This document shows, one piece after another, positions 60,286 to 63,789 of a stretch of 64,000 bases of DNA. The stretch is taken from contig JAQWJE010000035.1 of the NCBI GenBank assembly GCA_029248525.1, forward strand, positions 1 to 64,000, written 5' to 3'. How positions within the stretch are numbered: the first letter of the stretch is position 1; every line of letters starts with the position of its first letter. The stretch comes from Candidatus Binatia bacterium. GTDB lineage: Bacteria > Desulfobacterota > Binatia > UBA12015. The position numbers were made by a program, and so were the translations under genes. The notes below the pieces were generated by a model, which was not told the DNA's origin, did no database searches, and was given only the letters and a program-made list of their open reading frames with translations.

Positions 60286-60585
60286 TCAGGATGCGGGGCG
60301 GAGCTTCCCGGGTACGGGTGTTTTTTCGGCGACCTCCGGCCGAATCTCCTGCAACCGGCGGATCTCGTCGGGTGGCAGAAGAAGCGCCTCCCCGAGGTCA
60401 GCGGCCACGATTTGTGGTGCTTCTCCGTCGCAGGACACGCGGTGCTTTGCGAGCGCCCGGATCAGGTGGAGGGGAATGGTGCTGCGTCCCTCTGCGAAGC
60501 CTGCTCGGTAGGCCAAACGCCAGACCAGAGCGAGCCCGACGAGGAAGGCTGAAAAACTGAGGAAAATTGTCAACATCGTAACCAT
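60286..60585 (-). CDS. Small single-pass membrane protein (99 aa)
   Basis: 99 residues: an N-terminal membrane helix (about residues 4-26, FLSFSAFLVGLALVWRLAYRAGF) followed by a soluble tail with GEALLLPPDEIRRLQEIRPEV. No known domain. It starts at 60585 or at the second ATG (60576); neither has a clear ribosome binding site. Lying upstream and divergent from the ECF sigma gene, it may be part of the same envelope theme, but this is inference from place alone. Confidence 0.5.
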   Translation of the reverse strand: MVTMLTIFLSFSAFLVGLALVWRLAYRAGFAEGRSTIPLHLIRALAKHRVSCDGEAPQIVAADLGEALLLPPDEIRRLQEIRPEVAEKTPVPGKLRPAS

Positions 60586-60808: not shown

Positions 60809-61405
60809 ATGACGGTCGCGGATGTGGATCTGCTCTCGAGGTGTCTGGATGGGGATTCGGAGGCTCGGGAAGAATTCGTGATGTCGACGGATGGGCTGAT
60901 TCGGTGGACTCTGGTTGGGACTTTCCGTCGTTACGGCCGTCGATTGGAGGAGGAAGATCTGGAGGATCTGCGGCAGGAGGTCCTGCTGGCTTTATTCCGC
61001 GAGAATTCGCGGAAGCTGCGTCAATATGAGGGACGCAATGGTGCCAGCCTGGCTACCTGGTTGCGGGTGGTGGTCACCCGCCTGGCAATCGACCGAATCC
61101 GCAGTCTTGCAGCTGGAGAGAATGTGGAAAGTCTCGAGACGAGATCGCCGGCTGGAATTCCGGATGTCGCTGTCGAAGACAGCGGACCCGAGAGCGCTGC
61201 TGTTGCCTCCGAGCAGCGCCAGCATGTTTTGGGATTGATCGCAGAACTCTCACCGGGGGACCAACTATTTGTCCGCTTGTTCTACTATCAGGATGCGACG
61301 ATGGAAGAAGTGTCCAAGGTGATGGGGATCAGTCGGAATGCCGCTTATGTTCGCAAGATGCGGCTGCATCGCCGTCTACGGAGTCTTTTGGAGCACGCTT
61401 CATGA
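60809..61405 (+). CDS. ECF-type sigma-70 factor
   Basis: 198-residue sigma factor of two domains. Region 2 covers about residues 25-95, including EEEDLEDLRQEVLLALFRENSRKLRQYEGRNGASLATWLRVVVTRLAIDRIR, the core -10 recognition and core-binding part; region 4 (about 135-190) has LSPGDQLFVRLFYYQDATMEEVSKVMGISRNAAYVRKMRLHRRL, with a helix-turn-helix. No extra domain. The start at ATG 60809 follows GAGG/GAGGG in good register; an in-frame ATG at 60764 is a less likely alternative. Its stop overlaps the start of the fusion gene by four bases (ATGA), the arrangement of a sigma with its anti-sigma. Confidence 0.9.
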   Translation: MTVADVDLLSRCLDGDSEAREEFVMSTDGLIRWTLVGTFRRYGRRLEEEDLEDLRQEVLLALFRENSRKLRQYEGRNGASLATWLRVVVTRLAIDRIRSLAAGENVESLETRSPAGIPDVAVEDSGPESAAVASEQRQHVLGLIAELSPGDQLFVRLFYYQDATMEEVSKVMGISRNAAYVRKMRLHRRLRSLLEHAS

Positions 61406-63789
61406 AAGAACACGCTGGCAAGGAAGATCAGGTAATTCGTGGGATGATTCAGGATGCTCTGGGGCATGGCACGCCGGATGATCTGAACCATCCGTCGGAC
61501 ACCACGTTAGCGGCATTTGCGGACGGCGTTCTGGTCGAACCTGATCGATCCCGTGTGGAGAAACATCTCGCGGCGTGCGCATCCTGCTCGGAAGTCCTTC
61601 TGATGGCCTCGCGTGCGGCTTCGGAGCCTGCCTCTCCCCGGAAGGGTCGACACCTATGGCGGATGGCCGCGTCCTTTCTGCTGGTTGCGGGCAGCGTGGC
61701 TGCGGCGCTCTCGCTTGGACGCATCACCGGTGCGCAGATCGAGTTATTGGCAATGGGCCGGCTGGATCAGATGATGGGCGGAGGTGTTTCGGCAGCGGAT
61801 GTGCAATTGACCTTCGAGGACGGACCGACGCTCAGGATTTCGGAACTAAGCCTCGCGCTTCATAAAGGAACAGCCCCGACGGTCACCGCCCGTGAGGCGA
61901 CTCTGAGGCCCATCCTCTCAAGTTTGTTGGCGGGTGAGTTTCGGGCGTCGATCGCGTTGGACGAGGCCACGATTACGATCGTCGAGACGGCGCCGGGTCG
62001 CTATTCGGTGGATCCCCTCTTGCCGGGTGCGAGGCCGCCCAAGGCAATTCGCGATGCAGCATGGCAGCACGGAGTTGCCGCGGTCTATCTCAAGGGTGCA
62101 ACCATCCGGTATCTGGGCGCTGGAAAGACCGGGAACTTCGTGCTGAGTGGCGTCGGTGCGCAGATCGATTCGATCAAGGGGCCGGGACCGGTTCAGGTCA
62201 GCATCTCGGGGTCTTCCTCTCTGACAAAGGCGCCCTTTCGGCTTCAAGGAGAGGTTTCCTTTGGGGACGGGGGAGTACCGTCCTATGTTTTCCCACGTGC
62301 AGCCTTTGGCGGCGTTCCACTTCGTCTGTTGGGGCCTGCGGCCGATGTGATCCGAGGACGTTTGCATTTCGAGGGGCAAATTTCCGCAACTGGCCGGGAT
62401 TTTGATTCGCTCATGAATAGCCTCGGTGGTGCCGGCCGAGCGGAAGTGGGCCCGGGGGCACTGCCGGGGTTTTCGCTGGTGAAGAATCTGATGGCATCGC
62501 TGGCACCTGAACCGAGAAAAGAACTTCGAAATTCCGAGGTTCGTGCGGCAAAAAACTATAATACCCGTTTCCGAACACTGACAGCCGATCTGCGCCTGAA
62601 AGACGGGATGCTGGATGGCCGGAACATTCGAATTCAGGCGGAAGGATTTGAACTGTCGGGTGAAGGCCAAGTCGGACCCAATCGAGAGCTGCGGGTAGCG
62701 GGCGAGGTCCTTCTCGACCCAGCGGACAGTAAATATTTTTCGACCATCGTTCCCGGCACCAAGCCCTGGTTGCGGGCATCAGGCGAGATGGAGGTTCCTT
62801 TTCTTGCTACGGGGACTCTCCCGGGAATCGAAATCAAGGTGAATCGAAAGACCTCGACCGCTGTTCGGGTTCCGGGACAAGCTCCCCCTGCCTTTCTCCC
62901 GTCCGGAGACGGCCTCGGGCAAGCCGTTCGTGCGGCATCTCGAGGTTTCGCAAATGAGCAAGACGTACCTCCGCCCCTGAAGGCGTTGTCGAGCTATCTA
63001 TCGGCCGGGGGGAGTGTGGAACCGGAAGCGGTTCAAAAAGGGCTTGGTAATTTGCGCAGGACCGAGGTTCTTCTCACCGGTTATTATGAACCGATCCTCG
63101 AAGGACGCCGAAATCGATCGAAGCGGTTTCGCTACCCTGTGTATGGCCCACCTGCCGATCCCGTAAAACGAGCGAAAAGTCGTCGCGAGATTGAGGAGGG
63201 CGCGTTGGGCGGTCAGGGTCTCGAGCTCTTCTGGACCGATAATCAGGTCGAACTCTTCTTTTTGCAGATTCAGGGCTCTGGCCGCCTGCGGCTTGCCGAT
63301 GGCACAAGAATTCGCCTCGGCTACGCGGCCCATAACGAGCACGACTACCAATCCATCGGAAGGGTGCTGGTCGAGCGTGGTGATTTGACGCTCGCTGCGG
63401 CGACGGCACCCGGGATCCGAAAATGGCTTGCCGAAAATCCGGAAAAAGTCGCGGCGACCCTATTGCTGAATCCGCGCTATATCTACTTCCGGGAGCTCGG
63501 TCTCGACCCCTCGATCGGTCCCCTCGGGAGTTTGGGAGTGCCTCTGGTCCCATGGCATTCGGTTGCAGTGGATCCGACCGTTCATCCTCCGGGTAGCGTC
63601 GGCCGGCTCCGAGGCCTGCTGCCGGATGGCCGATCTCTGGATACCATCGTGATTGCCATGGATGCAGGTGCTGCGATCAAGGGGCCGACGCGAATGGATT
63701 TGTTTCTGGGCGCAGGGCCCGAAATCGGAGAGCTTGCAGGCCGGATGCGATCGTCTGCCCGAGTGGAATGGTTAGGTCGTCCGAGGTGA
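61402..63789 (+). CDS. Anti-sigma zinc finger / TM / AsmA-like / MltA lytic transglycosylase fusion
   Basis: 795 residues. Residues 25-68 carry an anti-sigma zinc-finger motif, HLAACASC, with H55-x3-C59-x2-C62 and a further His30, after TLAAFADGVL. One membrane helix follows (about 87-107). Residues about 115-490 look like an AsmA-type periplasmic region (VTAREATLRPILSSLLAGEFRAS, LRLKDGMLDGRNIRIQAEGF). The C-terminal part (about 530-795) is MltA plus 3D: LTGYYEPILEGR, FFLQIQGSGRLRLADGTRI, GYAAHNEHDYQSIG, LGVPLVPWHSVAVDPTVHPPGSV, AMDAGAAIKGPTRMDLFLGAG. D754 and D766 match the conserved pair of MltA, where the second is catalytic. Topology is consistent: finger in the cytoplasm, enzyme in the periplasm. 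The MltA family is normally a lipoprotein with no such N-terminus. Confidence 0.88.
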   Translation: MKEHAGKEDQVIRGMIQDALGHGTPDDLNHPSDTTLAAFADGVLVEPDRSRVEKHLAACASCSEVLLMASRAASEPASPRKGRHLWRMAASFLLVAGSVAAALSLGRITGAQIELLAMGRLDQMMGGGVSAADVQLTFEDGPTLRISELSLALHKGTAPTVTAREATLRPILSSLLAGEFRASIALDEATITIVETAPGRYSVDPLLPGARPPKAIRDAAWQHGVAAVYLKGATIRYLGAGKTGNFVLSGVGAQIDSIKGPGPVQVSISGSSSLTKAPFRLQGEVSFGDGGVPSYVFPRAAFGGVPLRLLGPAADVIRGRLHFEGQISATGRDFDSLMNSLGGAGRAEVGPGALPGFSLVKNLMASLAPEPRKELRNSEVRAAKNYNTRFRTLTADLRLKDGMLDGRNIRIQAEGFELSGEGQVGPNRELRVAGEVLLDPADSKYFSTIVPGTKPWLRASGEMEVPFLATGTLPGIEIKVNRKTSTAVRVPGQAPPAFLPSGDGLGQAVRAASRGFANEQDVPPPLKALSSYLSAGGSVEPEAVQKGLGNLRRTEVLLTGYYEPILEGRRNRSKRFRYPVYGPPADPVKRAKSRREIEEGALGGQGLELFWTDNQVELFFLQIQGSGRLRLADGTRIRLGYAAHNEHDYQSIGRVLVERGDLTLAAATAPGIRKWLAENPEKVAATLLLNPRYIYFRELGLDPSIGPLGSLGVPLVPWHSVAVDPTVHPPGSVGRLRGLLPDGRSLDTIVIAMDAGAAIKGPTRMDLFLGAGPEIGELAGRMRSSARVEWLGRPR

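Follow-up and report, generated by a model that had tools for sequence, protein, structure and literature searches.

A membrane zinc-finger anti-sigma-type protein fused to an MltA domain, encoded beside an ECF sigma factor gene in a Candidatus Binatia bacterium

Positions 60809–63789 of a 64,000-nucleotide stretch of a Candidatus Binatia genome (the window; assembly GCA_029248525.1, contig JAQWJE010000035.1) hold a gene for an extracytoplasmic function (ECF) sigma factor followed by a gene for a single protein that joins an anti-sigma-type zinc finger, a membrane helix, an AsmA-like region and a complete MltA lytic transglycosylase. From sequence comparisons we suggest, with a probability of roughly 0.5, that the pair comprises an ECF sigma factor and a membrane zinc-finger anti-sigma factor whose periplasmic domain is AsmA-like, and that the fused MltA, probably active, is a wall-engaged sensor that steers release of the sigma factor. 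A direct check of the letters agrees with the coordinates, frame and 4-base overlap given in a preliminary description of the region: the sigma stop codon is at 61403–61405 and the ATG of the fusion gene at 61402–61404. The host draft genome has 4.27 Mb in 59 contigs and is 98.92% complete, and the window lies on a contig of 160,977 bases. Features are as follows.

60809–61405, forward strand: ECF sigma factor P0002, 198 aa (TIGR02937 2e-19; Sigma70_r2 and Sigma70_r4 over cut-off)
61402–63789, forward strand: fusion protein P0001, 795 aa, with zinc finger, membrane helix, AsmA-like region, MltA and 3D
61402–61656, forward strand: predicted cytoplasmic anti-sigma-type region, residues 1–85, with H30 and H55-x3-C59-x2-C62 (zf-HC2 over cut-off)
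61654–61716, forward strand: single membrane helix, about residues 85–105 (hydropathy)
61720–62880, forward strand: AsmA-like, predicted extracytoplasmic region, about residues 107–493 (alignment to relatives matching DUF748, YhdP and AsmA)
62881–62991, forward strand: junction or linker, about residues 494–530 (starts of the relatives' separate mltA; hydropathy)
63070–63492, forward strand: MltA specific insert domain, residues 557–697 (PF03562, E 2.1e-47)
63559–63771, forward strand: 3D domain, residues 720–790, with D754 and the catalytic-equivalent D766 (PF06725, E 4.2e-15)
60286–60585, reverse strand: small membrane-protein gene, divergent from the sigma gene (synteny marker, outside the proposed mechanism)

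Both members of the pair fall into known families. P0002 is an ECF sigma factor: it scores 69.8 bits against TIGR02937 (cut-off 42.9), and this short protein carries sigma regions 2 and 4. Its sequence matches two solved chains, of which SigK is the best (4nqw, E 1.1e-6). The start at 60809 is one choice, with an in-frame ATG also at 60584. In the 795-residue protein, the zf-HC2, MltA and 3D models are all over their Pfam cut-offs. The zf-HC2 match (E 1.8e-6) spans residues 36–62, and the HxxxCxxC finger noticed earlier is present as H30...H55-x3-C59-x2-C62, with H55, C59 and C62 invariant in all 11 aligned rows. Mean Kyte–Doolittle hydropathy exceeds 1.6 only in 19-residue spans starting at 85, 87, 88 and 90, giving the one membrane helix that had been proposed. 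At E ≤ 10, a profile of the 11 rows finds two solved chains only, 3hug_B (0.0076) and the antisigma factor DdvA (8rlz, 0.031), both over the finger. We take 3hug_B to be RslA; its structure record says probable conserved membrane protein. No RsgI model is among the matches at E ≤ 1, and zf-HC2 and an ECF sigma factor are found instead, so the pair is not of the RsgI type. An AlphaFold prediction of P0001 made without an alignment had a mean pLDDT of 35.1, too low for the fold to be used. Going by what is known of the family, the finger region probably holds P0002 back at the membrane.

Evidence for the AsmA-like stretch comes through the relatives. With the window protein alone, the AsmA model reaches E 0.32 on the whole protein and 0.08 on the cut region, below its cut-off, so the assignment rests on aligned relatives; the AsmA-like stretch of the preliminary description finds support through these but not in the window protein by itself. 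At E ≤ 1 over the 11 finger/AsmA-like rows (window included), zf-HC2 matches 11, DUF748 matches 10 (best 6e-17), and YhdP and AsmA match six each (best 6e-9 and 1.5e-4); the window row has zf-HC2 and, weakly, AsmA as its sole matches. Residues 1–493 are 25–29% identical to relatives that match DUF748, YhdP or AsmA, which are 41–95% identical among themselves. In another family of the class, G017 (L055:3861-5827) has a sigma gene and then a 433-aa finger protein with an AsmA-like look. Its finger is matched by tblastn and the stretch that follows aligns with window residues 31–180 (31% identity, E 5.3e-5); its strong profile match carries no weight because G017 was a row of that alignment. The same locus has a weak upstream homologue of the small membrane-protein gene (E 1.4e-4), and MltA is on another contig.

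The MltA model is matched over positions 1–163 of 163 and the 3D model over positions 2–70 of 72. D754 and D766, which the preliminary description had named as the two conserved aspartates, correspond in an alignment to positions 297 and 308 of the Escherichia coli MltA chain 2ae0. According to the accessible text of one source, Asp308 of E. coli MltA is the single general acid/base catalyst; a figure legend there gives 328 for the critical residue, which we take as precursor numbering (PMC8562663). Apart from the fused copy, no MltA (PF03562 match) was found in the host genome. Its MltA domain is 47–53% identical to the MltA of eleven relatives, which share 45–79% among themselves; being about as close to the relatives as these are to each other across genera, the domain appears to be still constrained. 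With both aspartates intact, normal conservation and no other MltA found in the genome, the MltA part is probably an active enzyme. No signal peptide or lipobox ahead of the domain was seen by eye and hydropathy (no signal-peptide program was run). There is no second hydrophobic stretch in the protein, and the fused chain stands where a separate MltA has its own anchor.

Gene order in relatives is a further guide to how these parts belong together. We searched 14 genomes of the family, its own included, and all match; the 13 others are the basis of the counts. Ten of the 13 have a full finger/AsmA-like gene without MltA, and in 10 of 10 it lies directly after a sigma gene, a pairing that favors the proposed sigma/anti-sigma unit. 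Nine of these ten have a separate mltA: it adjoins the finger/AsmA-like gene in four, lies beyond one or two further genes in another four and is on another contig in one. Where the two adjoin on the same strand and contig (G005, G009, G011, G012), gaps are 24, 26 and 43 bases in G011, G012 and G005 at the chosen starts; the start in G009 is uncertain. One gene intervenes in G003 and two in G001, G002 and G010, again on the same strand and contig; these intervening genes match a class V aminotransferase (tested in G003) and an M20 peptidase (tested in G002), the others being grouped with them by BLAST. In G007 the finger/AsmA-like and MltA parts lie on separate contigs, both close to a contig end. 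G006 yielded no MltA; its contig breaks off just past the aminotransferase gene. The sigma gene and the finger gene overlap by 1 base in seven relatives, are separated by 1 base in two and by about 3 in G009 (start uncertain). Genes in the relatives were called with a codon-score script trained on the window, which missed sigma genes in L035 and L038 that tblastn and six-frame reading recovered, and starts were chosen by the analyst, some (G009) off any start codon. The order sigma, finger/AsmA-like, MltA in relatives gives independent grounds for linking the parts, and it agrees with the initial view of an ECF sigma/anti-sigma-type pair whose second protein has a complete MltA, its catalytic aspartates intact.

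The locus of the fusion is apparently the ancestral one, because an upstream small membrane-protein homologue and flanking gene families match those of relatives. The homologue is present at the sigma loci of all ten, with E ≤ 6e-15 in seven and weakly (0.006–0.67) in three, and the genes flanking the window locus are largely the families found around the separate mltA of G008. These comparisons make an origin by in-frame joining of a neighboring mltA to the end of the anti-sigma gene fairly clear. In G011, mltA shares the reading frame of the finger/AsmA-like gene, with one TGA stop between the two (L035:5078-5080). A TonB-dependent receptor gene lies between the small membrane-protein gene and MltA in G008, at the expected place of the sigma pair (L044:5805-8213). 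Downstream of the separate MltA of G002 is a gene for a large protein with DUF6600 and FecR domains (L033:11936-14533), and similar genes follow MltA in other relatives by BLAST; this protein is possibly a further envelope-signaling part. The sigma and finger/AsmA-like parts (60809–62880) are far more diverged from relatives than the MltA part. This could mean that their function changed once the fusion had formed, or that the pair has a separate ancestry.

No frameshift was seen at the junction: the open frame is unbroken, without a stop, and composition is coding-like. The latter is a weak sign, given by a GC content higher at codon position 1 than at position 2 over residues 478–583. Columns conserved with the finger/AsmA-like relatives extend to about residue 486, and BLAST matches to separate MltA proteins of the family begin between fusion residues 464 and 555. 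Judged by eye, the junction lacks the hydrophobic tail of the relatives' anti-sigma-type protein and also the start of their MltA, which resembles a signal peptide. A chance join is unlikely because relatives carry the same parts as unfused neighbors. The locus is very probably a real and well-formed fusion of two ancestral neighbors in one lineage.

If the pair acts as we propose, the anti-sigma part would retain the sigma factor on the cytoplasmic face of the inner membrane, a topology and binding expected from the family. The only MltA of the cell, its own signal peptide lost, would hang in the periplasm from the inner-membrane helix, where it would bind and probably cut peptidoglycan. Engagement with the wall, or its loss, may then alter protease access to the extracytoplasmic part, and a site-1 cut followed by an M50 (RseP-like) cut may set the sigma factor free. 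M50 proteases are over the cut-off in the host genome, which would allow the usual release in two steps. A stricter form, a one-chain link to transcription in which wall state, read at the active site of the only MltA in the cell, directly decides whether the ECF sigma factor is free, is tentative, and we regard it as doubtful.

Several observations weigh against the proposed sensor. About 23 residues separate C62 from the membrane helix, leaving little room for a canonical helix 4. Class I anti-sigma domains are described, in the available text of the source, as a three-helix bundle, a linker and a helix 4 that contacts sigma region 2, with binding via helix 1 and, mostly, helix 4 (PMC7406223). 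A conserved stretch ahead of H30 in the finger/AsmA-like alignment may replace helix 4 in this contact. Two relatives, G004 (88% complete) and G008 (70% complete), have MltA and no finger/AsmA-like match; since relatives do without the fusion, and these two without a finger/AsmA-like match, the fusion is dispensable for the basic circuit. The fusion is also found in one assembly only. The sole same-species contig, in G058, has residues 1–164 at 100% identity and then ends. The preliminary description had named the absence of the fusion from every other genome as a refuting result, and as far as we searched, no single match spanning both parts was found in 57 other genomes, 147 others of the class or 394 others of the phylum. 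In the class search 92 of 148 genomes (own included) match at E ≤ 1e-15, with at most six candidates scored per genome, and in the phylum search 25 of 395 (own included) match at E ≤ 1e-40, with at most two; these limits could have hidden a weak or divergent fusion.

Large frames around some MltA matches outside the family (for example 702 codons in L026, 762 in L016) were considered as further fusions, and those of L014, L016, L017 and L026 were rejected. In these four, MltA follows a start that is hydrophobic or like that of a lipoprotein, and the sequence ahead of this start is rich in Arg, Gly and Ala and, by eye, unlike a folded protein. That reading of long frames excluded L013, L015, L020 and others such as G113 (812) and G040 (896); in the class search, L013, L015 and L020 gave no match reaching into the anti-sigma part.

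Sigma phylogeny adds another point against the proposed sensor. The window sigma factor joins a second paralogue group in both sigma trees (support 89/89 and 92/89; long branches). Forcing it into a clade with the main group gives p-AU 0.293 and is not rejected. The window sigma is 42–49% identical to the sigma factors of the ten relatives, which are 69–97% identical among themselves. Orthology of the window pair with the second pair, as both trees suggest, was considered and set aside: the upstream synteny and the higher sigma identity to the main group speak for the main locus, a placement the tree test does not reject. The second sigma and finger/AsmA-like pair occurs at another locus in several family members (L049, L050, L051, L053, L054), and in the stretches examined there, no homologue of the divergent small membrane-protein gene stands beside it. 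Conserved blocks upstream of sigma, aligned in two groups of relatives, gave none transferable to the window.

Three other explanations of the fusion were weighed. The fusion may be a tether only, a chain shared because of an old neighborhood, with MltA doing its ordinary job while membrane-anchored or processed free and sending no signal to the sigma factor. We hold this to be rather unlikely. The separately encoded enzyme in nine relatives, the absence of a finger/AsmA-like match from G004 and G008 and the ordinary rate of conservation of the MltA domain are all consistent with it, but the sole MltA found is the fused copy, so that the enzyme is forced into the regulator, and the recurring neighborhood suggests a functional tie before fusion. 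A receptor without catalysis, the MltA domain being mainly a peptidoglycan-binding sensor much as the GH10 domain of RsgI6 presumably is for plant polysaccharide, is improbable by our estimate. As far as the available text of the sources goes, it has precedents in the very low activity of RsgI6 (PMC4711584) and in RsiV, which signals by binding lysozyme and does not need muramidase activity (PMC4183432). Intact aspartates, matches to a full MltA model and to MltA chains of known structure, and conservation that is not relaxed argue against it; moreover, Clostridium thermocellum has other xylanases, according to the text available (PMC4711584), whereas in the host here no second MltA was found. 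A false deletion in the assembly or sequence that joined two adjacent genes is very improbable. There is one assembly, the only same-species contig stops before the junction, and four relatives have the genes side by side, so that losing an estimated few hundred bases or less in error would be enough. Against this, the fusion lies inside its 160,977-base contig, is in frame and has coding-like composition over the linker, a weak signal, and what is missing is the hydrophobic tail and the signal peptide, with homology resuming ahead of the MltA domain.

The author of the preliminary description knew of no described system whose anti-sigma factor is itself a peptidoglycan-cleaving enzyme. That claim has to be narrowed, as there is a partial precedent in RsgI6. 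No anti-sigma/MltA-type fusion, and no description of anti-sigma factors whose periplasmic domain is AsmA-like, was found in the titles and abstract starts of literature on anti-sigma factors with lytic transglycosylase, AsmA and peptidoglycan, with subscription papers mostly outside this set. RsgI6, an anti-sigma factor of C. thermocellum, resembles the fusion in being a membrane anti-sigma factor whose extracytoplasmic C-terminus belongs to a family of glycan-cutting enzymes, and most rsgI genes overlap their sigI genes. It differs in its SigI-type sigma factor, RsgI-N domain, plant polysaccharide ligand bound by the GH10 domain and very low catalysis, and no AsmA-like part is described in the accessible text (PMC4711584). 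RsiV, the lysozyme receptor of Bacillus subtilis, likewise ties an ECF anti-sigma factor to a peptidoglycan-cutting enzyme and, in the accessible text, is a direct sensor cut by signal peptidase and then by the RasP site-2 protease; unlike the fusion, which has the enzyme in the same chain, it binds lysozyme in trans (PMC4183432). DdvA and class I zinc anti-sigma factors share the Hx3Cx2C finger beside an ECF sigma gene, but the fusion has a short stretch before the membrane helix and the added AsmA-like and MltA parts. With E. coli and other MltA (lytic transglycosylase family 2) the fusion shares complete MltA and 3D domains and the catalytic aspartate; known MltA, in the text available, is anchored on the outer membrane through a lipid-modified cysteine at its N-terminus (PMC8562663), whereas the fusion would hang from an inner-membrane helix. 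Its periplasmic region is related to AsmA-like proteins (DUF748, YhdP, AsmA) by profile through relatives, but it stands behind a finger and one helix and has about 390 residues against the 607 positions of the AsmA model.

In our judgment, how Gram-negative bacteria sense the state of the wall and respond in transcription is still poorly understood. The fusion names two partners otherwise unpaired, the finger/AsmA-like anti-sigma factor and MltA, and it draws attention to a kind of anti-sigma factor, spread across the family, whose periplasmic domain is AsmA-like. It predicts that in relatives with unfused genes, MltA touches or signals through the anti-sigma factor. If the proposed sensor is true, wall turnover and gene control would be physically linked in one chain.

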